Origin: a bacterium HR15
GTDB lineage: Bacteria > Armatimonadota > Fimbriimonadia > Fimbriimonadales > GBS-DC
Assembly: GCA_002898555.1 (NCBI GenBank)
Contig: BEHR01000015.1
Span: forward strand, 1-64,000
Direction of reading: 5' to 3'
DNA length: 64,000 nucleotides
Shown piece by piece: positions 3,972 to 59,964 of this stretch (the first letter of the stretch is position 1; every line of letters begins with the position of its first letter). The translations under genes were made by a program, and so were the position numbers. The notes under the pieces are model-generated. The model made no database searches, was not told the DNA's origin, and saw only the letters and a program-made list of their open reading frames with translations.

Positions 3972-5495
3972 ATGCCAACGATTGTCATTCCAACGGCGTT
4001 GCGTGCCTATACCGATAACCAGACGAGCGTGAAGGTGGAGGCGTCCACTGTTGGCGAGGCGATTCAGCAGCTCGCGGAGCGCTTCCCGAAGCTGAAACCG
4101 CACCTGTTCAACGAGCAGGGACGCCTGCGCAGCTTTGTGAACCTCTATCTGGGCGATGAGGATGTGCGCCACCTGCAAGGGCTGGACACGCCTCTCAACG
4201 AGGGCGACGAACTGGTGATTGTGCCGTCGGTGGCGGGCGGAACGGCAACTCATGTGCCCACTCCCGGGCGCCACGCCCCGCCTGGTCAGTCTGAATCGCC
4301 CGCTCTGTCCGATTGGCGCCATCTGATCGATGACACCCGCCTGCAGAGTGTTAGCCTGTCCCAGGAGGAGGTGCTGCGCTATAGCCGTCACCTGATTATG
4401 CCGGAAGTCACGATGGAGGGGCAGAAACGGCTCAAGGCGGCGCGTGTGTTGTTGGTGGGCGCAGGTGGGCTTGGCTCACCCGTCGCGATGTATCTGGCAG
4501 CGGCGGGCGTCGGCACGATCGGTCTGGTCGACTTCGATAATGTCGACTATACCAACTTGCAGCGGCAAATCCTTCACTTCACCTCCGATGTGGGGCGCCC
4601 CAAGCTCCAGTCCGCTATCGAAAAGATTCAGGCGATTAACCCTCATGTGCATGTGATTCCCTTCGAGACCCGCCTCACCTCCGAGAACGCGCTGGACATC
4701 CTGCGCGATTTCGATGTGATTGTGGACGGCACGGATAACTTCCCCACACGCTATCTGGTGAATGACGCTTGCGTGCTGCTGGGCAAGCCGAATGTGTACG
4801 GCAGTATCTTTCGCTTCGAAGGGCAAGCTTCCGTTTTCTGGGCGACGCATGGACCCTGCTATCGCTGTCTCTATCCGGAGCCACCGCCTCCGGGACTGGT
4901 ACCGAGCTGTGCCGAAGGTGGCGTGCTGGGTATCCTGCCCGGTCTGATTGGGCTGGTGCAGGCAACCGAGACGATTAAGCTCATTCTTGGCAAGGGCGAG
5001 CCGCTGATCGGACGATTGCTATTGCTCGACGCGCTGGCGATGCGCTGGCGCGAGCTGAAGCTGCGTAAAGACCCGAACTGCCCCGTGTGTGGCGAGAACC
5101 CAACCATACGCGAGTTGATCGACTACATGGAGTTCTGTGGCTTGCGCGGTGAGGAGGCTCCCATCACGACGGACGAACTGCCCTCTATTACTCCCCGCGA
5201 GCTGAAGGAGCGGCTGGAGCGGGGCGAGCCGCTGGTGATTCTGGATGTGCGGGAGCCGTTCGAACTGGAGATTAGCCGCTTGCCGAACGCGCTGCACATC
5301 CCGATGGGGCAGGTTGCCGAGCGTGTGCACGAACTGAACCCTGCCGATGAGATCGTGGTGATGTGCCGTTCAGGTGGGCGCAGCGCACAAATTACACGCC
5401 TGCTGCAGGCGATGGGTTTCCGCCGCGTGAAAAACCTCGCAGGCGGTATCAACGCCTACGCCCAGGAAGTGGATCCCAGCCTGCCCGTGTATTAA
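3972..5495 (+). CDS. Three-domain fusion: MoaD/ThiS-like carrier, MoeB/ThiF E1 enzyme, rhodanese
   Basis: The 507-residue product begins at the ATG at 3972, preceded by AGGAGGAAC; upstream in-frame codons belong to sufU. Residues 1-90 are a ubiquitin-like sulfur carrier ending in GG (89-90), but the chain continues into a linker instead of stopping. Residues about 135-385 are an E1-like adenylating domain with GAGGLGS, 'DNVDYTNLQRQ', two zinc CxxC pairs (C296/C299, C370/C373) and a cysteine at C313 in 'PSCAEGG'. Residues about 405-507 are a rhodanese with active C465 in 'MCRSGGRS'. MoeZ-like E1-rhodanese fusions are known; carrying the carrier domain in the same chain is less usual. The fusion should activate and thiolate a carrier for a sulfur-containing cofactor or cysteine. 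Confidence 0.85.
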   Translation: MPTIVIPTALRAYTDNQTSVKVEASTVGEAIQQLAERFPKLKPHLFNEQGRLRSFVNLYLGDEDVRHLQGLDTPLNEGDELVIVPSVAGGTATHVPTPGRHAPPGQSESPALSDWRHLIDDTRLQSVSLSQEEVLRYSRHLIMPEVTMEGQKRLKAARVLLVGAGGLGSPVAMYLAAAGVGTIGLVDFDNVDYTNLQRQILHFTSDVGRPKLQSAIEKIQAINPHVHVIPFETRLTSENALDILRDFDVIVDGTDNFPTRYLVNDACVLLGKPNVYGSIFRFEGQASVFWATHGPCYRCLYPEPPPPGLVPSCAEGGVLGILPGLIGLVQATETIKLILGKGEPLIGRLLLLDALAMRWRELKLRKDPNCPVCGENPTIRELIDYMEFCGLRGEEAPITTDELPSITPRELKERLERGEPLVILDVREPFELEISRLPNALHIPMGQVAERVHELNPADEIVVMCRSGGRSAQITRLLQAMGFRRVKNLAGGINAYAQEVDPSLPVY

Positions 5496-38591: not shown

Positions 38592-41147
38592 ATGGGCATG
38601 TCCATACGATTGTTTGGGGGACGGGTTTACGGAGCGTGGCGTGCGCTGGGATGCTGTTGGCAGGCGTTAACGCTGATGGCGTTCCTTTCCAGCCTACTCG
38701 TGCTGGCAATGGGTGGTTTGCGGGCAGCAGGCTGGACGCTGTTCGGCTTCTGGGTCGCTGCGAACGCCCTGACTGGGTTAAGGGTATTGCTATGGGGCCT
38801 ATGGCGTCCACGGTTGTGGGGCGCCATCACCACATCCGCATTCGGCTGGTCCTTTGTGGGCGCGTTTTTAGCAGCGATCCTTGTGCCTGTCTGGAGCGCG
38901 GCGAGTGCATCGGCAACGGGTGAGGTCACTTTTGGCAGTGCGTTCCTGCTGCTTTTAGCGGGCATCGCTTTCGGCTTTACGCTGATTATCGGGTTCATCG
39001 TCAGTGTGATGGGGGCAGGGCTGGGATTGATGGCAGGCGGTGAAAGGTGGGAGCAGGCAGCAAGATGGGGGCTGACGGCATGCTGGAGCTGGCAAGCGAT
39101 GGGCTTGGTTGGCGCCCTGCTGAGTTTGCCGACTGGGCTGGTGCTCACCATCTGGCTGGGCGTGCCGTTGCTCACGCTCGGTACAGTGCGCCTGCTCATA
39201 CCCGGTAGTCGAATAGACACATGGCTCCTCCTGATTCGCCCGCACCTGCGGCGAGCGTTCATCCTGCGGGGACAGTGGGGGACGCGCTCATGGCGGTTGG
39301 ACATGCGAGGTGCCGCCGTCGGGATAACGGTCGCCCTGTTCACAGGGCTGGTATGGCAGATGGGCCTGCTACAACCCCTACAGGCAAGCAGTCTTGCCTG
39401 GTTGATTCAGTTCCGCAACGAGCCGTGGGTGCTGCAGCGCAAAGGCGTAAGTGTTGATCTCTGGCAGAGCGAAGCGACCCGGCGCGTGGTGTTGCTGGGT
39501 TACGATCAGGATGGGTATGCAGCACTCGGTCAGGATTCTGAATGCGCGGTACTGGCGCGAGCCATTCGTCAGCTGCATGCATGGCGCGTCCGCGTGATAC
39601 TCGCACCCCTGCCCCTGTTGGAGGCGGAGCCAGGGCAATCAGAGCCATTCCAGCGTTTAGCGCAGCGTAATCGGCGCGACCTGAACCTTTTGAGAAAGGC
39701 GGCGCATGAGGCAGGCAATGTGGTGTGGATTGTCCCGGCAGCGAGCCGCCTTCCGAAAGAAGCACAGCAGCTCCTTTCAGCAGGCAGAGCGGTTGGCGCG
39801 ATGGCGCGCATTCGCTATTTTGCACCGGGGTTGCCAGCTATCGAGCGCGACAAGCGAACCGTTGCGCCCGCGCTCGCTGCGATGCATCTCCTTGACATCC
39901 GTGATAATGCGCCTTCAAGCGAGCGATTCCTCCTGACCGACTTCTATGGTGAGCAGACGGGTGAAGCGTTCGTCCGTGCGCCGATATCCTGCATCTTGAA
40001 GGGCAAACCGTTCTACTGGACAGGGGCACGGCGCGTGGTCAGGGATGAATTCTTAGTAGAGCGCGAGCAGCTTGCGCCACAGCCAATCCTTCCACGGCAG
40101 CTGCTCGCCGACCGGATCGCGATCCTGCCCGCCTTGCAGCCCGATCTCTACTTGACGCCTGTCGGCAGGATGGATGGACAGGAGCTAATCGCGCATCAGC
40201 TTGCTTCGCTGTTGCACGGGACGATCATCAGGACACCCTCGCCAGGATGGATACTGCTTGCGCTGCTCCTGATGGGCTTGATCAGCGGGCATCTATGTCT
40301 GCGGCGCGCGCCTATCGAAGCGTGGTGGACGGCGATAGTGATAGCCATCATTATCTGGCTGGGCAGCATCGGGTTATTCGTTGGTGGGCACATCTGGTTC
40401 GACCCCTTCCTGCCCCTACTAAGTGTAGCGCTGACCGCGCTAATGGTCTCGCAACTCACTTTTGTCAGCGAGAGTGCGGAGCGCGCTCGCCACCGCGCGC
40501 TGCTGCAACGGCTGGTCGCGCCTGCTGTGGCGGAACAACTCCTGGAGGATTTCGAAGCGCGCCTAAGAACAGGCGGCATGCGCAGCAGCATCGGTGTGCT
40601 GTTCGCTGATATTCGCAACTTCACCCCTTTTGCCGAGGCACATACGCCAGAACAGGTCGTCGAACGGCTTAATCGCTATCTGGGCATATTAACGGAGACG
40701 CTCCATGCCCATCAGGGCATTCTGGACAAGTACACAGGCGATGGGCTGATGGCAATTTTCGCCTCGCATCTGCTACCCGAACCAGAAACAGAAGAGCAAT
40801 TGATCTGCCGTGCGGTGCGGGCTGCAATTGCGATGCAGCATGCATTGCTGCAACTGAACAGGTCAAGCGATCCGCCTTTGGGAATGGGTATCGGGTTGCA
40901 CTTTGGCGAGGCGGTGCTGGGATTGCTGGGTGGCGCGACGCAGTTCAACTATACAGCAGTCGGACGCACAGTGGTGATCGCCGCACGGTTGCAGGCGCTG
41001 GCAAGAGCGGGCGAAATCGTGATGAGCGAGGTGGTCTATCAAGTCGCGCACAAAGCGGGTATCCTGCACGAACTATCTCCAGAAACTGTGCAGCTCAAGG
41101 GGATGACGGCACCCTTTATCGTCTATCGCCTGTGCCTGTCTCAGTAG
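38592..41147 (+). CDS. CHASE2-domain class III nucleotide cyclase with altered active site
   Basis: The 851-residue protein has about six N-terminal membrane helices (about 10-210), a CHASE2-type extracytoplasmic sensor (about 250-540), three more helices (about 550-620), and a C-terminal class III cyclase domain (about 640-850). The metal aspartates are present in 'FADIRNFTPF' and 'YTGDGLMAIF', and a substrate lysine is in 'LDKYTGDG'. The block normally reading GDxVNxAARLE is 'GRTVVIAARLQ', so the transition-state Asn is Val and the purine-selecting Asp is Arg, while the Arg is kept. The domain may be weakly active, accept another nucleotide, or be regulatory. It converges on the CRISPR effector gene and overlaps it by 32 nt. 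Confidence 0.85.
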   Translation: MGMSIRLFGGRVYGAWRALGCCWQALTLMAFLSSLLVLAMGGLRAAGWTLFGFWVAANALTGLRVLLWGLWRPRLWGAITTSAFGWSFVGAFLAAILVPVWSAASASATGEVTFGSAFLLLLAGIAFGFTLIIGFIVSVMGAGLGLMAGGERWEQAARWGLTACWSWQAMGLVGALLSLPTGLVLTIWLGVPLLTLGTVRLLIPGSRIDTWLLLIRPHLRRAFILRGQWGTRSWRLDMRGAAVGITVALFTGLVWQMGLLQPLQASSLAWLIQFRNEPWVLQRKGVSVDLWQSEATRRVVLLGYDQDGYAALGQDSECAVLARAIRQLHAWRVRVILAPLPLLEAEPGQSEPFQRLAQRNRRDLNLLRKAAHEAGNVVWIVPAASRLPKEAQQLLSAGRAVGAMARIRYFAPGLPAIERDKRTVAPALAAMHLLDIRDNAPSSERFLLTDFYGEQTGEAFVRAPISCILKGKPFYWTGARRVVRDEFLVEREQLAPQPILPRQLLADRIAILPALQPDLYLTPVGRMDGQELIAHQLASLLHGTIIRTPSPGWILLALLLMGLISGHLCLRRAPIEAWWTAIVIAIIIWLGSIGLFVGGHIWFDPFLPLLSVALTALMVSQLTFVSESAERARHRALLQRLVAPAVAEQLLEDFEARLRTGGMRSSIGVLFADIRNFTPFAEAHTPEQVVERLNRYLGILTETLHAHQGILDKYTGDGLMAIFASHLLPEPETEEQLICRAVRAAIAMQHALLQLNRSSDPPLGMGIGLHFGEAVLGLLGGATQFNYTAVGRTVVIAARLQALARAGEIVMSEVVYQVAHKAGILHELSPETVQLKGMTAPFIVYRLCLSQ

Positions 41148-42318
41148 GGGCATGGCGCCGCCGTGCCCCTACATTTAATGCGCGCTTTTCCCAGATATCC
41201 CTGAGCTGTCCATACACCTCACGCGCCTGCTCAATGATATCCTCCGCTTTCAGCACTTGCCCCTCCGCTCGCCCAAAGCCACAGTGCGCAATATCGTTGC
41301 GCAACTCTATGACCCTACCCCAGACCTTCGTGAGGAGGTCGTCTGCACGGTTATGATGAGCCTCGTTCAGGGTGCGCGCGGCATCTTCTCGACGATCGAG
41401 GTTATTCGCGTCTTGACCGTCCAACTGCACTTGATAGCTAATCAGCCATTCGCGGGCGAGGGTCATCGCCTGAACAACATGCCCGCGTTCGAGATACCAA
41501 CCGATAAGCTCCAGCTGGGTTTGCAGGTCATCGTGTTCAAAGGGGCGGTAGGCTTGCTCTATCTGCTTCAAGAGTGGTATAAGGGGCGTCGCATGCTCCC
41601 CGATCTCGGCTTGTGCATCCTCGATGGCTGGGCGGAGACTTTTTACCGATTCTGCTAAAAGCGGCACGCGGCTCAGTAGCAGGTTGCTTGAGACCTTTTT
41701 CAGAGCATTAGCAAGCGACTTAAGGCGTCTGGGAGCATTCGGCTGTTGCAAGCGCCACGCCGTGTTCTGCTCTTTTTCGAGCAGACCTGCCAGTTCGCGC
41801 GAGTCGCCAGTGGCAATAAACATCTTGGCAGCGGTCAGCCAATCCAGCAGCTCGACGAAAGGGGTAAGCTCGAACACGGGGGTTTGCCCCTTCTCATTTT
41901 TTGCCTCGAACGCCCCATAGAGCAGATGGGCAATCTGCACGCTTTTTACCTGTTTCAAGTAGGCAATCACGAGCAGGGTAATCATCGGCAGTGAGCGAAA
42001 GCTATGCGTGATATCGAAGGCGAGCGTGTCGCCCTCTTCCACTACGCGGTCGATGGCAGAGAAAATTTGCCTCAGCTCCTGCTCACTTTTGCCATCGGGG
42101 ATGTCCACCTCCTGAATGTTAGTTTTGCCTTCCAGCAGAGGGCGGCAAGCACCCCAGTTTTTGTTGCGTGCGCCCTGTGTAAGCAGCACGCAGGTTGTCT
42201 TCGGCTGCAGCCATTCCACCAGCGCCTCCTGAATGAAGCGTGTGGATTTCTCGCGTTCAGCCCAGCGATAGACGGTCTCTTCGTATTTTCCTGTGCCCAG
42301 TAGAGTGATGAGTTTCAT
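41116..42318 (-). CDS. csx1: CARF-HEPN ribonuclease, Csx1/Csx2 (TM1812) family
   Basis: The 400-residue CRISPR ancillary effector has an N-terminal CARF domain with the TM1812-family signature: 'MKLITLLGTGKYEETVYRW', 'FDITHSFRSLPMITLLVIAYL' and 'HLLYGAFEA'. The C-terminal HEPN domain holds the RNase motif R340-N-D-I-A-H345. Family knowledge: the CARF dimer binds cyclic oligoadenylate made by Cas10 and the HEPN dimer then degrades RNA non-specifically. It occupies the csm6 position, its ATG overlapping the csm5 stop by 4 nt, so it is co-expressed with the complex. The extreme C terminus is contributed by a dispersed repeat. Confidence 0.9.
   Translation of the reverse strand: MKLITLLGTGKYEETVYRWAEREKSTRFIQEALVEWLQPKTTCVLLTQGARNKNWGACRPLLEGKTNIQEVDIPDGKSEQELRQIFSAIDRVVEEGDTLAFDITHSFRSLPMITLLVIAYLKQVKSVQIAHLLYGAFEAKNEKGQTPVFELTPFVELLDWLTAAKMFIATGDSRELAGLLEKEQNTAWRLQQPNAPRRLKSLANALKKVSSNLLLSRVPLLAESVKSLRPAIEDAQAEIGEHATPLIPLLKQIEQAYRPFEHDDLQTQLELIGWYLERGHVVQAMTLAREWLISYQVQLDGQDANNLDRREDAARTLNEAHHNRADDLLTKVWGRVIELRNDIAHCGFGRAEGQVLKAEDIIEQAREVYGQLRDIWEKRALNVGARRRHAPTETGTGDRR
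41144..41172. terminator. Bidirectional hairpin between cyclase and csx1
   Basis: GTAGGGGCA (41144-41152) pairs with TGCCCCTAC (41164-41172), extended by GG/CC, at the convergent 3' ends. It belongs to the dispersed TAGGGGC...GCCCCTA repeat family. The last codons of the CARF-HEPN gene ('ARRRHAPTETG') are read through it, so the repeat supplies its C terminus. Confidence 0.6.
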
Positions 42319-43475
42319 GAGGTGCCTCCTTCGGGTATCAGCGCGACCCAGCCGAGCGGTGCATGGGGCTGATTGTTGCGAAACGCCACACGGCGCGTCT
42401 TGGGGAAAACATCGGTATCGCGCTTCCCCAGTTTATACAGCCTCCGAATCTGCTCGAACTCCTCATCCAGCCCCTCGGTCAGAGGATTTGTGACGGTTTT
42501 GGCTTTCCAGCCACCGCCCCAGCCGATGTTGAGCAGGAATCCCCCTTGCGTCTCTACCTGGTTCAAACGTTGGTGCAACCTCCCGTAGAATTGCGCAATC
42601 GCGCTTAGTCCATAATCCTTCTTATAAAACCCCTGTTCGCTCTCAATGAGCGAGCTGGCGCGCTTGTTGCAGGCGTCTATAAACCCATGCAGTGCCTCTT
42701 TCTGCTGATTGCTGAAACCAAGATCTGCTTTCGCGGTTCCCTGCAATAGTCCTTCATCGAGGGTGATAGTCAACCGGGTTTCAACGCTTGTGGGCAGCCA
42801 CTCAAGAAACATTTTGTACTCCTCGTTGCCCACGCGTTTCTGCTCCAGGCGATTACCACGCAGCGTGTAGACCCATACCAGTCCGATCTGCACCTTGTCG
42901 GGGTCAATTGGTTCTGAGTCGCTAATGTGCAGCGCACGCAGCAGGTCACGGTTCGATTCGTTACCCCTTCCTCGACCGATTAACAACTCACGCTCCACCG
43001 TTTCGCGTCCGACCCATTCGCGTGGCGATAGTCGACCGCGTTCATCGCGTTGCACAACTTTTTGTGCCAGCCTCCTGCGCTTCTCTTCACCCAGATCCAG
43101 CACCAACCATTCCAGAATCGCGGTTCGAATTGCGCCCTTCAGTGTGCTGCCGGGGATATAGGGGCGTCCGAACGGGTCGCGGATGCAAGCGCGGATCTTG
43201 GTCTGAGCAGGGTTCTGATGGCAGACAACGGCGCGCGCCGCCACCTCCTGTGGTGGGATATTACGCCGCTGCAGCCAGCTTGCCCAGTTGAAGCCTGACT
43301 GCATCATCGCGTTCGCCAGATTGGTCGGGTCTTCACGGCTGCGGGTTAGCACCTTCTCGATATCGATCAGGTACCACCGTCCGTTTTGGAAAACGCCGTC
43401 AAAGACGCCATATTCTTGCCCGCTGCCGATATGAAGCGGGCTGAGAATCTCCAGTCGATAGCGTTGTGTTGCCAT
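42315..43475 (-). CDS. csm5: Type III-A RAMP protein Csm5
   Basis: The 386-residue Cas7-like protein begins 'RYRLEILSPLHIGSGQEYGVFDGVFQNGRWYLIDI', the Csm5 beginning, and carries 'IRDPFGRPYIPGSTLKGAIRTAI', the glycine-rich RAMP loop. Csm5 caps the 3' end of the crRNA in the Csm complex and has been linked to recruiting host nucleases for crRNA trimming. It lies 1 nt after csm4 and overlaps csx1. Confidence 0.9.
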   Translation of the reverse strand: MATQRYRLEILSPLHIGSGQEYGVFDGVFQNGRWYLIDIEKVLTRSREDPTNLANAMMQSGFNWASWLQRRNIPPQEVAARAVVCHQNPAQTKIRACIRDPFGRPYIPGSTLKGAIRTAILEWLVLDLGEEKRRRLAQKVVQRDERGRLSPREWVGRETVERELLIGRGRGNESNRDLLRALHISDSEPIDPDKVQIGLVWVYTLRGNRLEQKRVGNEEYKMFLEWLPTSVETRLTITLDEGLLQGTAKADLGFSNQQKEALHGFIDACNKRASSLIESEQGFYKKDYGLSAIAQFYGRLHQRLNQVETQGGFLLNIGWGGGWKAKTVTNPLTEGLDEEFEQIRRLYKLGKRDTDVFPKTRRVAFRNNQPHAPLGWVALIPEGGTS

Positions 43476-43476
43476 C

Positions 43477-44544
43477 TTATTTCACCCCTGAGGTGGAGGG
43501 AACAGTTGTGCCGATGGGAAAAGCATAGCCATAGCGATAGGCGGGGTGCGGGGCGTGGTCTGGGCGCAGATCGATCAATTGTCCCAGTCGGAACTCAGGT
43601 GGGTGCGCGATCAAGGAGCCTTCCGCGACCATCCAGACCTCCTTGCGGCGCAAGTTGTTCGCTTCGGGCGAGCCAAGCCAGCCACGCTTGAGCGTCAATT
43701 GATAGGCGGAACCATCGGCTCGTAGCCAGTTGCGCTGCTCCTCGTTTGCGGGCAGCCAAGGCGACAAGGTGATGAACGCATTCACGGGTTGTTTGGGCGA
43801 TTCGATAGTCCACTCGCGCCGTGCAAAGGTGAACAGCCCGCGTCCTGCCCCACGCTCACCGCCAAGCCCTGTGTCGCCCAACAGGCGCAAGCACGCCTCA
43901 AACTGCGGCTGAAAACTCGCCTCGCCAAACTGCACACCGAACCACAATCCACAGCCCTGCGCAAAATGCACCTCACCGAACTGCCAGATTTGTGAGGCGT
44001 TCGTGATGCGATCCAGCGTCACACGCGGCACCACCGCACGACGATAAATCACCAGGTCATCCTGTTCGTAGTCCCAGTGATTTTGAAGCGTGTGCCAGTC
44101 GTCGGGATGAATGAGTATCTCGCCCTCCTGTAGCAGCAGCCGTGATGGCTCCATCGGAGGCCCAGGCGGCGGCTCCAGTGCAATCGTTTCACCCCGCAAG
44201 TATTGCGCCAGCACTCGTTCGGAGACCCAGCGGATGCCTTTCCAGCGTTTGGCGGTCTCGGTGTCGTTGGTGGGCGGGCGCAGCGGTTTCGGGTAGAAGC
44301 GCAGCGCACTGGCGAAGGGGAACGCCGAGGTGAGGAAGAACGGTTCACGCCCCGCATCCTGATAGCGTGCCAACAGGTTGTTGCTCAGCGAATCGACGCC
44401 ATACAGCAGCCGCCATATCGAGCAGATGGCGCTAAAGAGGGTATCGGCGGGGATGAACTCGCGCGTCTCCTCCTGACCGATGCCCCGCTCGCCTATATGC
44501 AACGGCGCCCGAAAAGCGAGATAATAAGCAACCATACCCGTCAT
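43477..44544 (-). CDS. csm4: Type III-A RAMP protein Csm4 (Cas5-like)
   Basis: The 355-residue protein starts 'MVAYYLAFRAPLHIGERGIGQEETREFIPADTLFSAIC', typical of Csm4, and contains 'LGGERGAGRGLFTF', the RAMP glycine-rich loop. Csm4 binds the 5' tag of crRNA and joins Cas10 to the Csm3 backbone. Its ATG overlaps the csm3 stop (ATGA). Confidence 0.9.
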   Translation of the reverse strand: MTGMVAYYLAFRAPLHIGERGIGQEETREFIPADTLFSAICSIWRLLYGVDSLSNNLLARYQDAGREPFFLTSAFPFASALRFYPKPLRPPTNDTETAKRWKGIRWVSERVLAQYLRGETIALEPPPGPPMEPSRLLLQEGEILIHPDDWHTLQNHWDYEQDDLVIYRRAVVPRVTLDRITNASQIWQFGEVHFAQGCGLWFGVQFGEASFQPQFEACLRLLGDTGLGGERGAGRGLFTFARREWTIESPKQPVNAFITLSPWLPANEEQRNWLRADGSAYQLTLKRGWLGSPEANNLRRKEVWMVAEGSLIAHPPEFRLGQLIDLRPDHAPHPAYRYGYAFPIGTTVPSTSGVK

Positions 44545-45401
44545 TGCCCCTTCTGCAACTCGGTCTTGGAAACATCCACAATCTTTTGGATTTGGGTGTT
44601 GTCTCGCAGGTCAAGCTCGGTCGCCAACTCGATGGGGGGTGCGTTTTGGATGTAGTACGCCAGCGGACGCAGTTCCACACGCAGATTCTCAAAAGCGATT
44701 TTGCCTGCGCCGCGCGAACCATAGCCACCCAGGTAATCATCCTCCAGCAGGCGCATACCCTCAAACAGCACCTTGAGCCACTCCACATCCTGTTGCCAGT
44801 CATTCCCGTTCAGACGATAGATGGTGTAAATCATTTCGAACGGTTCGAAGCGGGCACCAGCGGGCACTCGTTCATTTTGGCGGGGCACGGCGGCGGAGGT
44901 GATGCGGTCTATCGCGGCCTCCCACTTGACCTCCGTGTAGGGCAGGTCGGTATCGGCTCGCTCTAACTCAGCCTTCGAATCTGCATGGAGCGCCACATCG
45001 CGCACCACGAGCCGCGTCGGCTTGAAAGATGCCCATTCACCGCGACGAGCCGCTTGTTCACCCTGCGCAACGCCACGCACGCGCTCGCCCGGCGAAACGC
45101 CAAACACATGGCAGACGGCACATCCTGCGAACTCCTGTTCTTTGTAGCACTCGTGCAGGCGCACATCTTGCACCTTTTTATTCAGGGGCCGGTCGTAAGC
45201 CCGTTCCAGCAGGGAGCGGATCTTGCCCCGTAGGGAGGAGCCGGGAATATATGGCTCGCGTGTCACGGGGTGGCGGATAATCGGGCTGTCCACGCCACCG
45301 ATGTCCAGCCCCGCAGCGGCACCGCCAATATGCAGTCCCGTCACCAGACGGATGCCGCCCGTAATCACTACTTTACCCATCATCTGAATGCTGTTTGCCA
45401 T
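44541..45401 (-). CDS. csm3: Type III-A backbone ribonuclease Csm3
   Basis: The 286-residue Cas7 protein forms the crRNA-binding filament and cuts target RNA at 6-nt intervals. The catalytic aspartate is kept in 'LDIGGVDSPIIRHP', and 'EPYIPGSSLRGKIRSLLERAY' is the RAMP motif. 'CYKEQEFAGCAVCHVFG' adds the zinc-binding cysteines of Csm3. The conserved Asp predicts active target RNA cleavage. Confidence 0.95.
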   Translation of the reverse strand: MANSIQMMGKVVITGGIRLVTGLHIGGAAAGLDIGGVDSPIIRHPVTREPYIPGSSLRGKIRSLLERAYDRPLNKKVQDVRLHECYKEQEFAGCAVCHVFGVSPGERVRGVAQGEQAARRGEWASFKPTRLVVRDVALHADSKAELERADTDLPYTEVKWEAAIDRITSAAVPRQNERVPAGARFEPFEMIYTIYRLNGNDWQQDVEWLKVLFEGMRLLEDDYLGGYGSRGAGKIAFENLRVELRPLAYYIQNAPPIELATELDLRDNTQIQKIVDVSKTELQKGQ

Positions 45402-45403
45402 GG

Positions 45404-45808
45404 TTACTTCCCTCCTGCTGCCTTGTGATAGGCGAGAATGGCTTCGAAGAGGTCGACAAAGCGGGCAAAATTGGAGGCGTCAGAGCCAACCGCGTCGATG
45501 GCATATGATAGCACCTCCGATAGGGTTTTCGCACCGCGTCCGCTTGCTCGCGCAGCTGCGTATGCCATCTTCGGTTTCAGCATTATCAACTCGTGCGGAT
45601 CGAAGCCCTTCATCTCCATCTTCTTGACCAGTCCGTAGATGTTGCGGATCTGATTGGTGGTCAGCCCCTGATTTTTGACCTGCTTGCCGACTTGCTCCGC
45701 CAGATCCACAAGGGCGCGTCCGCCCTCATGGATGGCACGACGCACCTGATTGGCATCGAACTGTTGCGGTTGCGACTGTCCTCGTTGCGGTTGCTGTGAT
45801 CGGTTCAT
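45404..45808 (-). CDS. csm2: Type III-A small subunit Csm2
   Basis: The 134-residue helical protein has a Gln/Asn-rich N terminus followed by 'LTTNQIRNIYGLVKKMEMKG' and 'LIMLKPKMAYAAARASGRGAKTL', which match Csm2 (Cas11). It lines the complex opposite the Csm3 filament and contacts the target RNA. Position between cas10 and csm3 agrees. Confidence 0.92.
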   Translation of the reverse strand: MNRSQQPQRGQSQPQQFDANQVRRAIHEGGRALVDLAEQVGKQVKNQGLTTNQIRNIYGLVKKMEMKGFDPHELIMLKPKMAYAAARASGRGAKTLSEVLSYAIDAVGSDASNFARFVDLFEAILAYHKAAGGK

Positions 45809-45811
45809 CGT

Positions 45812-48274
45812 TCATCCCTCCTTGCCACGGGTGTAGAGTTCTGCCCAGCGGGCAACCACATGCAGGTGATGGATGATGCTGTTGTTGCCCACGAGCAAAC
45901 TGCGTATCTGTTCGATTTCGTGTTGCCATGCCTTGTGTTGTTCGGCGAATCGGCTGAGGTGATAGAGGCTGCGCCAGAGCCAGCGTGCATAGAAGGTGAG
46001 GTCGTGCTTGCGGTTTGCACTGACTTGCCCCTGGCGAATGAGTTGGCGCACATGGGTGGCGTTGCGCTGATAGAGGGAGGCGATGTGTGCCAGGCGCGTG
46101 ATGAAGGCGCGCGGCACTTTGCCTCGCTGAGAATCGCCCTCACCTTGCACCATCTGGCACACCTGCTGGAACATCGCGTGCACGCGCTCGAACTCACCCC
46201 AGCCCATCGGTGTCTGTAGAAAGCAGATGGCGTCCTTCTCGCGCTGTGTGCCATTTGCCTGCCAGCGGTGCGTTTTTGCCTGTTCGTCCAGCGCGTGGCG
46301 TGCCGTTTCCGCCAGCTGATACAACGGCGCAGTCGGATGGTTGATGGCGATGCCTGCCGATAGCGTGATGTGGTCTGCACCCACCAATTGGCGGAACGCT
46401 CGCCGAATCTTGAAAGCCAGTTCAGGCAGCACGCTCCACGCGCCCACGATGAACAGGTCATCTCCACCCGCATAAATCAGATAGATTTGCTGTTTTTGGG
46501 CATACGCTTCGCACAGGTGGGCAACATAGCCTTCGAAGAAGTAGCGCATCGTGCGGCTGAGGGTTGCCATGCGGCTAACGGTTGCTTCGTTGCCCAACCC
46601 TCTGGCAAACAGCTGCCCCAGCGAATCGACATCCATCCGTAGTACGCCCAGCCACTGCGCACCCGTCGCCCGCTCGGCGATCTCTTCGTAATCGGGCAGG
46701 CGATTTCCCTTTATCGGAGGTGGCACCACGGATGCGAGCGGACGGAACTCATACGAGCCGTTTGGCTGCAGGCGTGTTGGCAGGAAGTCGGGGCTGAAGG
46801 TGATTTTCACGAATCTCGGCTCGGCAGGAGCCTCGCCCTCCAGGTGTATCTTCCAGCCAAAAGCACCCAGCGTCTGTTCCCAGTCGGCATTCTCGGGTGG
46901 GTCTATCGGGTCAATCCATTCGATGTGCAATGCATGCAGGGTGCGAAGGCGGGTGCCCAGCTCCTCGAAGCTGTGGCAGCGGCGGCATTTACGCAAGTCA
47001 TCGTCGAGAATCCCGCCTTGTCCGCGCTGCCACGCGCCGTGGCACACCTGGCACAGCGATTCGGCATCGGTGGCGCGTTGGACAGGGGTAAAGAGCTGCT
47101 GAAACTCGTTGTCGGGCAGCTCCGCCCACAGACGCTGCTTGCTTCGATTCAACGCCTGTCCCAGCTCCGCCCACTTGCCAGCAAAGTTGCCCAGAAAGTC
47201 CGCTGTGGTCAGCGGCACCGCCTCTATCAGCATGCGCAAGTCGCCCTGAAAAGCCTTGAACAGCTTACGGCTTATCTCCTCGCGGAGCCGACGGAGCTGC
47301 TCGAGGGCATTGTACGGGATGAACAGGTAGAAGTGCCCGCCACTGGCAAGCAGCTGGCACACGATGGGCAGCTCAAATTTACGCAGAATGAACTGGGCAA
47401 TCGCTTCGGTGAGCAGTTGCAGGAAGAAGGAGCGTCCTTTCAACCCGCGTGCCGCCCCTCCACGACCTGTCAGATAGAGAAATTCCTGAATACCCGACAG
47501 ATCCCCTTTCACCAGCGCCAGCAGCGGTTCGTTATATTCCTTGGGATTGCGCCATGCCTGCTCCAGCGCATTAGGTATCAGTTGCTTGTCCAAACACGCC
47601 GCGATGGCAGCCGTTACGCGCAAATGGTCATACAGCGAAACATCGGGGACCGTGCGTTCGTCCTGGTTTTCCCATGGTGTGGCGGATGGCACAAAGCTGG
47701 TGTACTTTTCCAGCAAGGCGACAATCGTGCGGAAATCGGCAGAGGTGTAAGTTCGGTTCGCCGCGAGACGCTGCCACTCCCGGTTGAACTCTTCCCAGAG
47801 GTTCTTGTAGGCGTCCTGACCGATGTGTGGGTTCGTCTGTGGCAGAAGCGTTTCGCTGTTCCAGTCTAACGGCTGAACGGGATAGCGTTGTTCGGGCGGA
47901 TAGCTGGGTTCACCGCCATCAATCCAGTTGAGCGGGATGCGGGAGAAGATAGAGACCAGCCCACTGCGTTGTGGATCCTCCTGCTCGCGCGTCTCCTGCG
48001 CACGCTCGCCCGCTGCCAGCCTATCCGCCAGTTGCACGATCTGTATCAGGCGCAGGCGGTCGGTGTTGCGTCTATCGGGATTGGGGTTGTGATGCTGGCG
48101 CACCCCCTCAGCGAGGTCGTCGCCAAAGGCGAGGGTAAAGTAGTTCTGTTCACACCACTTTGCCCCGAACTCCTCGTGTCGGATTCTTGAGTCCCACTCG
48201 GCGCGTTGCTGGAACTTCCCAATATCATGCAGCAGCGCCGCCAACCAGACCTTTTCTGAATCGCTGAACGACAT
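45812..48274 (-). CDS. cas10: Cas10/Csm1, HD nuclease and cyclic-oligoadenylate synthase
   Basis: The 820-residue large subunit of the type III-A complex has an N-terminal HD domain with H16-D17 in 'LLHDIGKFQQRAEW', a zinc finger ('CQVCHGAW', 'CRRCHS'), and a palm domain whose GGDD motif (603-606, 'IYAGGDDLFIVGAW') is intact. It should therefore both cut ssDNA and make cyclic oligoadenylate when target RNA is bound. Residues about 478-488 (LEGEAPAEPRF) are encoded by a dispersed repeat inserted in frame. It is the first gene of the operon, with a GGAGG ribosome site. Confidence 0.96.
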   Translation of the reverse strand: MSFSDSEKVWLAALLHDIGKFQQRAEWDSRIRHEEFGAKWCEQNYFTLAFGDDLAEGVRQHHNPNPDRRNTDRLRLIQIVQLADRLAAGERAQETREQEDPQRSGLVSIFSRIPLNWIDGGEPSYPPEQRYPVQPLDWNSETLLPQTNPHIGQDAYKNLWEEFNREWQRLAANRTYTSADFRTIVALLEKYTSFVPSATPWENQDERTVPDVSLYDHLRVTAAIAACLDKQLIPNALEQAWRNPKEYNEPLLALVKGDLSGIQEFLYLTGRGGAARGLKGRSFFLQLLTEAIAQFILRKFELPIVCQLLASGGHFYLFIPYNALEQLRRLREEISRKLFKAFQGDLRMLIEAVPLTTADFLGNFAGKWAELGQALNRSKQRLWAELPDNEFQQLFTPVQRATDAESLCQVCHGAWQRGQGGILDDDLRKCRRCHSFEELGTRLRTLHALHIEWIDPIDPPENADWEQTLGAFGWKIHLEGEAPAEPRFVKITFSPDFLPTRLQPNGSYEFRPLASVVPPPIKGNRLPDYEEIAERATGAQWLGVLRMDVDSLGQLFARGLGNEATVSRMATLSRTMRYFFEGYVAHLCEAYAQKQQIYLIYAGGDDLFIVGAWSVLPELAFKIRRAFRQLVGADHITLSAGIAINHPTAPLYQLAETARHALDEQAKTHRWQANGTQREKDAICFLQTPMGWGEFERVHAMFQQVCQMVQGEGDSQRGKVPRAFITRLAHIASLYQRNATHVRQLIRQGQVSANRKHDLTFYARWLWRSLYHLSRFAEQHKAWQHEIEQIRSLLVGNNSIIHHLHVVARWAELYTRGKEG
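46812..46843 (-). repeat. Dispersed repeat inserted in frame inside cas10
   Basis: The 32 nt here match the intergenic repeat at 354-385 at 30 of 32 positions. Copies of the same core lie at 33664-33716 and around 53590. In cas10 it encodes LEGEAPAEPRF between the zinc finger region and the palm, a place where the family normally has a variable loop. Confidence 0.8.
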
Positions 48275-48287
48275 GAACTGCCTCCAT

Positions 48288-48392
48288 CCTGTTGATTCTA
48301 CCTACTGATGGCGATTCCTGCTTCGTTGGTCAGGTTCGCGCAGGCTATGCTCCTTACCTGTTAATTCTACCTGATGATGGCGAACTCTGCTT
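48288..48392. promoter_or_regulatory. Pair of 36-bp direct repeats between divergent cas10 and CARF-RelE genes
   Basis: 48288-48323 and 48357-48392 match at 30 of 36 positions, with a period of 69 nt. Each begins CCTGTT(G/A)ATTCTACCT and ends CTGCTT. Both hold TAGAAT on the minus strand, which could serve as -10 boxes for the cas operon. They are candidates for paired regulator sites or duplicated promoters. They do not resemble the CRISPR repeat. Confidence 0.5.
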
Positions 48393-48445
48393 AATCCGAC
48401 CCAAGGAGATAAGAGGACATGGTATACTCCCAGAGGGAGGCATAT

Positions 48446-49504
48446 ATGCGAACGATCTTGACCACTGTGGGGGCGTCGTTGTTGAACAACGCGCGCAGGA
48501 ATCTGCGGCGTGGCTCTAACGAAGCCGTGTCTTTGCAGGAATTGACAAACTATCTACGCCAAGCATCGCCTGAGGAAGCCAGTGCAGAGACTAACTCGCT
48601 GAAACGATTGCTGCAGGAGGGTGACCGAATCGTGCTCCTCTACTCTGATACCGATGAGGGGGATCTATGCGCCAACGCGCTGAAAGCGTTCTACAGCCAT
48701 CAGGGCTATCAGGTGGAGATTGCGCGTGTGCATAACCTAAATTACACCGAAAGCCGCTTCAAAATGCTCGGGCTGCGCTCGCTGGTTGCCACACTGATTG
48801 AGCATATCCAGAAGGAGCGCAAGGCGGAACGCAAGGTGCTGATTAACGCCACAGGCGGCTTCAAAGCCGAAGTCGCCTATGCCACCCTGGTCGGACTGCT
48901 GTTCAATGTGTCCGTCTACTACATTCACGAGGCGTTCCAAGACATCATCGAGATACCCCCGATCCCCATTAACTGGGACTACTCGCTGTTTGCTTCCTAC
49001 GAGGAGTTCTTTGAATGGATCGACTCGGAGCCACGCAAAACCGGCGAAGTGCAGCAGCGTTTGCACAATCTACCCGCTAAAGATAAGATTTATCTTCTGT
49101 TGAGGGATGAGCCAGATGGCTGTACCTACCTGTCGCCTGCAGGGGAGACATTCTATCGTGCCTACGAGGAGCGCATGACCTTGCCAGGGGAGCCGATACT
49201 GCTCTCCCGTAAAGCGCGAGAAGCTTACCAGTCCGCCGAACCCAGCACGCGTGAAAGTTTTGATAAGGTATTGCGCAAGCTAAGGCACCCCGATCTGCGC
49301 AGTAATCAGACCGAACTTGTGCGGAACGGTGACTGCTTAGTCTACCCCCGAGGGCATTGCAACGAACGCGTGATTTTCTACGAGCAAGAAGGCAAGATTT
49401 ATGTGTGCGAACTGGTCAGACACAGCGACGAGAGCTATGAACGCTTGATTAGTGAGCGGGTGCTGCGCGAGCATTATGGCGATTTCACCCCTTGGAGCGG
49501 CTAA
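48446..49504 (+). CDS. CARF protein with RelE-like C-terminal domain (Cami1-like)
   Basis: The 352-residue protein starts at ATG 48446, with GGGAGG before it and TATACT (48423-48428) further upstream. The CARF domain (about 1-170) shows 'MRTILTTVGASLLNNARR', 'VLLYSDTDEGDLCANAL' and 'KVLINATGGFKAEVAYATLVGL', the pattern of the APE2256 (TIGR02619) group. A helical linker (about 190-255) leads to a RelE/ParE-like toxin fold (about 255-345): 'SFDKVLRKLRHPDL', 'GDCLVYPRGHCNERVIFYEQEGKIYVCELVRHSDESYERLI'. CARF-RelE proteins such as Cami1 cut mRNA on ribosomes when activated by cyclic oligoadenylate. The RelE assignment rests on pattern and position. Confidence 0.75.
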   Translation: MRTILTTVGASLLNNARRNLRRGSNEAVSLQELTNYLRQASPEEASAETNSLKRLLQEGDRIVLLYSDTDEGDLCANALKAFYSHQGYQVEIARVHNLNYTESRFKMLGLRSLVATLIEHIQKERKAERKVLINATGGFKAEVAYATLVGLLFNVSVYYIHEAFQDIIEIPPIPINWDYSLFASYEEFFEWIDSEPRKTGEVQQRLHNLPAKDKIYLLLRDEPDGCTYLSPAGETFYRAYEERMTLPGEPILLSRKAREAYQSAEPSTRESFDKVLRKLRHPDLRSNQTELVRNGDCLVYPRGHCNERVIFYEQEGKIYVCELVRHSDESYERLISERVLREHYGDFTPWSG

Positions 49505-49590: not shown

Positions 49591-51748
49591 GTTTCAATCC
49601 CTCACAGGTAGGCTAAAAACGTACTTGCCCGCACCTCTCTCAGCCGCCTCCTCAATTGTTTCAATCCCTCACAGGTAGGCTAAAAACAGTATGCGTGAGG
49701 GTTTAGTGAGCGTGCTGGTACTCCGTGTTTCAATCCCTCACAGGTAGGCTAAAAACAGGGATTTATTCACAAGGGGGGCAGTGGGGCTTTGCGTTTCAAT
49801 CCCTCACAGGTAGGCTAAAAACCCAGTAGAGCGGGTTCGCGGTGATGGCTTCAAAGAGGTTTCAATCCCTCACAGGTAGGCTAAAAACCCGGGGTGCGGT
49901 TGGGGTGCGCGGCGGGGTGAGCAGGTTTCAATCCCTCACAGGTAGGCTAAAAACGGTTGGACGTGCGCACCTCGCGCACGGTCACCTTTGTTTCAATCCC
50001 TCACAGGTAGGCTAAAAACGAGCCGATGTGCTTTGTACACATCCCCCCCCCCCGCCGTTTCAATCCCTCACAGGTAGGCTAAAAACCTGGATGCTCGCCG
50101 CGCCGCTAAGGGCGGCAAGGCCGGTTTCAATCCCTCACAGGTAGGCTAAAAACTTCTGGAGGGGAGGGCAGGACGCGCGTCGTGTTTGGGTTTCAATCCC
50201 TCACAGGTAGGCTAAAAACTCGCATTCTGGTCGAGGCCGAGGGCGGCGAGGCCGCGTTTCAATCCCTCACAGGTAGGCTAAAAACAAGACGGACTCTAAA
50301 GTCCGTCAGAGGCTCAATGCAGGTTTCAATCCCTCACAGGTAGGCTAAAAACGCGCGTGGAGGTGGTTCTCCCCAGTGAGGCAGCTGCAGTTTCAATCCC
50401 TCACAGGTAGGCTAAAAACGCGGCTGCGGGGGGGTATTTTTGATATGGGGGCGACGTTTCAATCCCTCACAGGTAGGCTAAAAACGCTCGCGCTCGCCAT
50501 CGCGTTCCGCAGGCAACGCCGAGTTTCAATCCCTCACAGGTAGGCTAAAAACTTCGACCGCGTCGAGATGCTCGTCCGCTTGCGCCATTGTTTCAATCCC
50601 TCACAGGTAGGCTAAAAACTCTGCTGCACCGCCTGACGCTGCTCTTCGACCTCCAGCGTTTCAATCCCTCACAGGTAGGCTAAAAACTCGTGCAGGAGCA
50701 GGTTCGTCGCATGGGTATCCACAGGTTTCAATCCCTCACAGGTAGGCTAAAAACAGGACGGTGATGGAAGGGCCCATCATCGACGACTGGTTTCAATCCC
50801 TCACAGGTAGGCTAAAAACGCGCCCTTGGACTTGCCGGCCTTGCGCCGGGCCTCCAGTTTCAATCCCTCACAGGTAGGCTAAAAACCTTTCACCCACTGC
50901 CACCCCCCACACAAAAAAGCATGTTTCAATCCCTCACAGGTAGGCTAAAAACGGGTTCAATTCCCCCCGCCTCCACCATTTTAGCCTAGTTTCAATCCCT
51001 CACAGGTAGGCTAAAAACGTTCCTTAGGGGGGAGATACCTCTCAGCCGCCGCGTGTTTCAATCCCTCACAGGTAGGCTAAAAACGCAGACGAATCAGGCT
51101 CATATCCTGTATGAATCGGTTGTTTCAATCCCTCACAGGTAGGCTAAAAACGGGGGGGAGGTATGAGGTACGAACCTGCCCAACAATGTTTCAATCCCTC
51201 ACAGGTAGGCTAAAAACCCCCTGTTTAGCCTACCTGTGAGGGATTTTCGCTCGGTTTCAATCCCTCACAGGTAGGCTAAAAACGTGCGGAAGAGCGTCGG
51301 CGGCTCGTTTATGAGCTGACGTTTCAATCCCTCACAGGTAGGCTAAAAACGCGAAGCCGCCCAAACCCTCCTCTATGATGACAGAGGTTTCAATCCCTCA
51401 CAGGTAGGCTAAAAACTATCACCCGGGGCGAAATCAAGAGGGGGGGAGACACGTTTCAATCCCTCACAGGTAGGCTAAAAACGAGAGGGATTTTCGCTCG
51501 CGGCGCACCCTGGCCCTGGTTTCAATCCCTCACAGGTAGGCTAAAAACCGGTGATTGACCTGGTCGGGGGGAAGAACGCCCCTGTTTCAATCCCTCACAG
51601 GTAGGCTAAAAACATTCCCCATCAGCTTCACCCTGCGCCTTATGCACGCAAGTTTCAATCCCTCACAGGTAGGCTAAAAACCGGACGCCCACGCGCCCAA
51701 GCATAAACCGCCTGCATAGTTTCAATCCCTCACAGGTAGGCTAAAAAC
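49591..51748 (-). CRISPR. CRISPR array, 33 identical 30-bp repeats and 32 spacers
   Basis: Counted by eye there are 33 repeats, starting at 49591, 49658, 49727 and so on to 51719, all apparently identical, with spacers of 35-39 nt. In the transcribed (minus) sense the repeat begins GTTTTTAGCC and ends GGGATTGAAAC, giving the ATTGAAAC 5' handle typical of type III and I-B systems. The leader is therefore on the right (51749 upward) and the newest spacers are on the right. It lies next to the type III-A genes. Numbering spacers from the left: spacer 11 is a perfect hairpin, 21 a tRNA-like end, 25 an inverted repeat copy, and 29 overlaps 25. Confidence 0.98.
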
Positions 51749-59837: not shown

Positions 59838-59964
59838 GTTTCAATCCCTCACAGGTAGGCTAAAAACGGGGCAGGCACTAAAAACGGGGCAGGCACGGGG
59901 GCCTGCCCCTACTGTGGTTGCTTTCAATTCCTCACTTTCAATCCCTCACAGGGAGGCTAAAAAC
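59838..59964 (-). CRISPR. Decayed second CRISPR locus
   Basis: 59838-59867 is a perfect copy of the 30-bp repeat. 59935-59964 is a copy with two changes. Between them 59921-59934 is a truncated copy, and the space holds two tandem CTAAAAACGGGGCAGGCAC units plus a GGGGCAGGC...GCCTGCCCC hairpin of a dispersed repeat. No promoter for it is visible, so it is probably dead or a landing relic. Confidence 0.75.

Follow-up and report, generated by a model that had tools for sequence, protein, structure and literature searches.

A predicted Cami1-type CARF–RelE effector encoded beside Csx1 at a type III-A CRISPR locus of bacterium HR15

The 352-aa protein encoded divergently from the csm operon in the window, the 64,000-nucleotide stretch of bacterium HR15 DNA analysed here, is very probably an ortholog of Cami1 (CRISPR-Cas-associated mRNA interferase 1) that serves a type III-A (Csm) CRISPR system together with Csx1, as predicted from sequence comparison and structure modelling. 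The gene adds one more member to an already known effector type, and its product is a well-supported Cami1 member that is distant from the characterised Cami1 and belongs to a two-effector locus. The locus comprises the following features.

41116..42318, minus strand: csx1, CARF-HEPN effector with an RNDIAH motif (PDLC01824, 1.2e-116; TIGR02221, 1.8e-37)
42315..43475, minus strand: csm5 (TIGR01899, 7.3e-31)
43477..44544, minus strand: csm4 (TIGR01903, 3.4e-66)
44541..45401, minus strand: csm3 (TIGR02582, 1.2e-67)
45404..45808, minus strand: csm2 (PF03750, 2.4e-28)
45812..48274, minus strand: cas10/csm1 with an HD domain and a GGDD cyclase motif at aa 603 (TIGR02578, 4.2e-178; PF01966 for HD, PF22335 for the palm)
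48446..49504, plus strand: predicted Cami1-type CARF–RelE effector gene, 352 aa (PADLOC PDLC01937, 3.4e-124; Cami1 8phb, profile 2.8e-29, fold 1.4e-18)
48446..48970, plus strand: CARF sensor domain, residues ~1-175 (PF09651, 2.9e-36; S11 and G138-F139-K140)
48971..49186, plus strand: middle segment, residues ~176-247, counterpart of the Cami1 middle (winged-helix) region by Cami1 alignment
49187..49501, plus strand: predicted RelE domain, residues ~248-352, with invariant R308, H326 and Y331 (domain model pLDDT 81; PDB fold matches)
49591..51748, probably minus strand: CRISPR array with 33 copies of the repeat GTTTCAATCCCTCACAGGTAGGCTAAAAAC (plus-strand reading), downstream of the CARF–RelE gene

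The sequence-only reading had described a CARF protein with a RelE-like tail of the Cami1 type, and this description is borne out by the agreement between a full-length PADLOC match and the predicted RelE fold. The PADLOC model CARF7--CARF_RelE (PDLC01937) aligns residues 2-349 of the protein with model positions 3-342 of 344 (3.4e-124), as for an ordinary member of this family, no difference from it being noted. Cami1 is the top PDB relative of the whole protein both for the single sequence (phmmer, 7e-17) and for a profile of 19 sequences, in which the alignment is almost gapless over profile positions 41-335 (2.8e-29). Structure predictions were built on shallow alignments of 3-4 sequences, and the whole-protein model has a mean pLDDT of 68.6, with residues 162-241 below 50. 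The first four PDB ranks for this model are occupied by apo and 70S-bound Cami1 chains (Foldseek, best E 1.4e-18), followed by Crn1-like ring nucleases, with RelE itself lower down. The protein and Cami1 (PDB codes: 8phb, 8phj) have the order CARF, middle region and RelE with the same spacing, and they have in common the CARF family, the Arg, His and Tyr residues of the RelE domain and the type III CRISPR context; their identity in the structural alignment is only about 22%. An in-frame ATG at 48419 would extend the open reading frame by 9 aa, but most close relatives begin at a position equivalent to 48446, suggesting that 48446 is the likelier start.

A profile of the C-terminal stretch alone gives nothing significant by sequence in PDB or Pfam, and so assignment of the RelE domain from sequence alone was dropped and the stretch was modelled and compared by fold. 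The separate model of residues 240-352 (113 residues, mean pLDDT 81) shows the order of elements expected of RelE, namely strand, helix, helix, strands and helix. Its best PDB matches belong to the RelE superfamily, with Cami1 first and then RelE, YoeB, HigB and ParE (Foldseek), and it superposes on RelE bound to the 70S ribosome with a TM of 0.61; because of these matches, the fold predicted for this part of the protein, proposed earlier for residues 255-352, is RelE-like. P301, R308, H326 and Y331 do not vary across 19 full-length sequences, in which the relatives are 43-60% identical, and G303 and E307 hardly do. Cami1 carries equivalents of R308, H326 and Y331 at its aligned positions, and these three are the predicted catalytic residues; R308 and Y331 presumably fall near R61 and Y87 of Escherichia coli RelE. 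Fold prediction, full-length alignment and the PADLOC model together underpin the RelE assignment of the C-terminal domain. The predicted RelE fold is common to this domain and the RelE/YoeB mRNA interferases, whereas the domain is fused to a cyclic-nucleotide sensor and RelE/YoeB are held by an antitoxin.

The region between the two domains had been regarded as an unusually long linker, an idea that is ruled out by a length difference of one residue from Cami1. Residues 141-241 align to residues 158-259 of Cami1, so that the spacing is equal to within one residue; the structure model is poor across most of this region, with pLDDT values under 50 at residues 162-241. Judged by this alignment, the so-called long linker is the normal middle region of the Cami1-type family, which Mogila and colleagues are said to have described in 2023 as a winged helix-turn-helix.

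The CARF domain is of the APE2256/TIGR02619 type (CARF7), matching PF09651 at 2.9e-36 and TIGR02619 at 4.5e-27, the latter above its cut-off. S11 and G138-F139-K140 correspond to ring-nuclease motifs I and II, and S11 and K140 are invariant in the same 19 sequences. K140 pairs in the alignment with K169 of the ring nuclease Sis0811, of which PDB holds an S12G/K169G mutant. In the related Sso2081, where motif I is G9-T10-S11, an S11A change severely reduces cleavage and a T10A change makes no noticeable difference (PMC10018336). The window protein carries A10 where Sso2081 has T10, and by analogy the lost threonine need not matter for ring-nuclease action since T10A is without noticeable effect there. 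Ring-nuclease activity has been stated for Cami1 (PMC12409355), and the conserved S11 and K140 suggest that the CARF domain may likewise degrade its own activator.

These features bear on two other explanations of the protein. It could be a ring nuclease or cA4 sink, in which the CARF domain degrades cA4, the RelE domain is weak or inactive, and the gene dampens Csx1 instead of adding a second attack. The invariant S11 and K140 are in keeping with this, as is the comparison of the CARF domain, in which Crn1-like ring nucleases, Sis0811 among them, come closest after Cami1. The Crn1-type enzymes (Sis0811, Sso1393/3qyf) have a CARF domain and the catalytic Ser and Lys in common with the window protein but, unlike it, have no RelE domain. 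Against this reading, R308, H326 and Y331 are invariant across the 19 sequences down to 43% identity, which argues for selection on the RelE nuclease; a protein that is mainly a sink is very improbable. It is also very improbable that the RelE-like domain acts elsewhere, on free RNA, tRNA or, in the manner of ParE, DNA gyrase, and not on mRNA in the A site. Targets vary within the RelE/ParE superfamily, ParE folds are among the fold matches of the domain, and one relative gives a weak match to ParE_toxin (0.064); however, both the domain and the whole protein match Cami1 best, its 70S-bound structure included, and the domain spacing is the same as in Cami1.

The locus itself is assigned from its genes to type III-A (Csm), with the Cas10 cyclase motif intact. 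The genes cas10/csm1 and csm2-csm5 lie in one operon, each scoring above the cut-off that NCBIfam sets for its own model, and csx1 is the last gene (cas10–csm2–csm3–csm4–csm5–csx1). The proposal of a Csx1-type HEPN effector in the operon holds: the csx1 product at 41116-42318 on the minus strand matches CARF-HEPN models of PADLOC at 1.2e-116 and 7.2e-107, and its RNDIAH fits the RxxxxH HEPN motif. The CARF–RelE gene, which points away from the operon, occupies the stretch between cas10 and the CRISPR array. One Cas10 was seen in the genome, a weak match on contig C4 being discarded as a second Cas10 since it lies in a GGDEF protein. No cas6 or cas1 adjoins the csm operon in the window. Contig C12 of the same genome carries a type I-B-like locus (L045, 6841-14577) with cas6, cas8b, cas7, cas5, cas3, cas4 and cas1, and an array on that contig has the same repeat core as the array of the type III-A locus; we infer that the Csm system probably takes crRNAs processed by the Cas6 of contig C12. 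Two 36-nt direct repeats, 83% alike, lie at 48288-48323 and 48357-48392 between cas10 and the CARF–RelE gene. No further copy of their core is present in the window, where 0.08 chance matches are expected, and they are possibly a candidate regulatory site.

Cami1 is defined as an effector of cA4-activated mRNA cleavage in the A site, the Csx1 and Cami1 families are both defined as cA4-activated, and co-occurring type III effectors typically use one common activator; Cami1 is present in 135 loci, and Csx1 and Cami1 occur together in 54 (PMC11229360). The pairing is already known and is expected here. The suggestion that the two effectors give a graded response is unsupported: since both families are cA4-activated and co-occurring effectors typically share their activator, Csx1 and the Cami1-type effector firing together is, by analogy, likelier. 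As in other loci with Csx1 and Cami1, both effectors are encoded in one locus, but the CARF–RelE gene of the window is divergent from the operon and placed between cas10 and the array. A csx1 gene adjoins a CARF–RelE family gene in three related genomes of the phylum (G004, G031 and G037). Stop codons that had been flagged as internal in the Csx1 genes of related genomes proved to be at natural gene ends. The locus would offer a usable system to test the joint action of Csx1 and Cami1, and the known picture of type III effectors is unchanged.

For the Cami1-type reading, the following course of events may be proposed. Recognition of a target RNA would induce Cas10 to make cA4, and binding of cA4 to the CARF dimer of the Cami1-type effector would free the RelE domains. 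The freed RelE domains would bind the ribosome and cut mRNA in the A site, which would stop host and phage translation alike, while Csx1 would cut RNA non-specifically. The CARF domain, through S11 and K140, would degrade cA4, as reported for Cami1, and the arrest would be self-limiting because the CARF domain would degrade its own activator.

The CARF–RelE family was found in 35 of the 291 genomes of the phylum (matches at 1e-15 or better), and 17 of those 35, the window genome included, have a close relative (about 1e-94 or better). In six of the 17 genomes the close relative has a cas10 palm domain no more than about 10 kb away, and eight have no cas10 within at least 5 kb on each side (G164, G165, G169, G179, G180, G183, G184 and G187); in the remaining three, contigs are too short to judge the linkage. 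In G164, a genome in one contig, cas10 is about 975 kb away; in G184 the distance is about 265 kb, and in most of the others cas10 is on another contig. G165 gave no cas10 match anywhere in a genome that is only 84% complete. With intact full-length copies standing at a distance from any cas10 in several related genomes, it is conceivable, if rather unlikely, that Cami1 in this lineage is a stand-alone chromosomal effector answering type III signals in trans, with the locus of the window still operon-linked. If so, activator or regulation might not be the same for linked and unlinked forms. The cas10-unlinked form is the one point that might be less familiar. Examples of unlinked full-length relatives are those at L053 and L057; in one genus, g92, such relatives have a conserved neighbour that by eye resembles a B-family DNA polymerase gene. 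No relatives of the CARF–RelE protein were found in the viral contigs. With the characterised Cami1 as query, only two genomes of the phylum match at 1e-20, and a profile built around it for this phylum was dropped for that reason. Other CARF7 proteins of the phylum end in another kind of C-terminal region, and for those scanned the best PADLOC model is CARF_DUF2103, a candidate effector class; the CARF7 proteins at L032, L036, L037 and L043 match this model, and their distinct C terminus is conserved and in most cases has an HHRP motif.

The crRNA strand of the array is probably the minus strand, because the repeat then ends ATTGAAAC, as repeats of this kind usually do at the 3' end. Two spacers, at 51218-51253 and 51483-51518, are odd. 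In one, a 22-nt stretch is perfectly reverse-complementary to the repeat of the same array, and the guide of this spacer would pair with the repeats of the pre-crRNA on the likely crRNA strand; the second spacer has 16 nt, GAGGGATTTTCGCTCG, in common with the first. Because of this common stretch, both may derive from one element bearing a repeat-like sequence. Neither odd spacer has an exact protospacer in the viral contigs, nor does the repeat-complementary spacer have one elsewhere in its own genome. Isolated repeat copies are present outside the arrays, with two copies separated by about 80 nt on contig C12 (L045, ~4928-5040) and a single copy, with a variant copy nearby, at 59838-59867 of the window.
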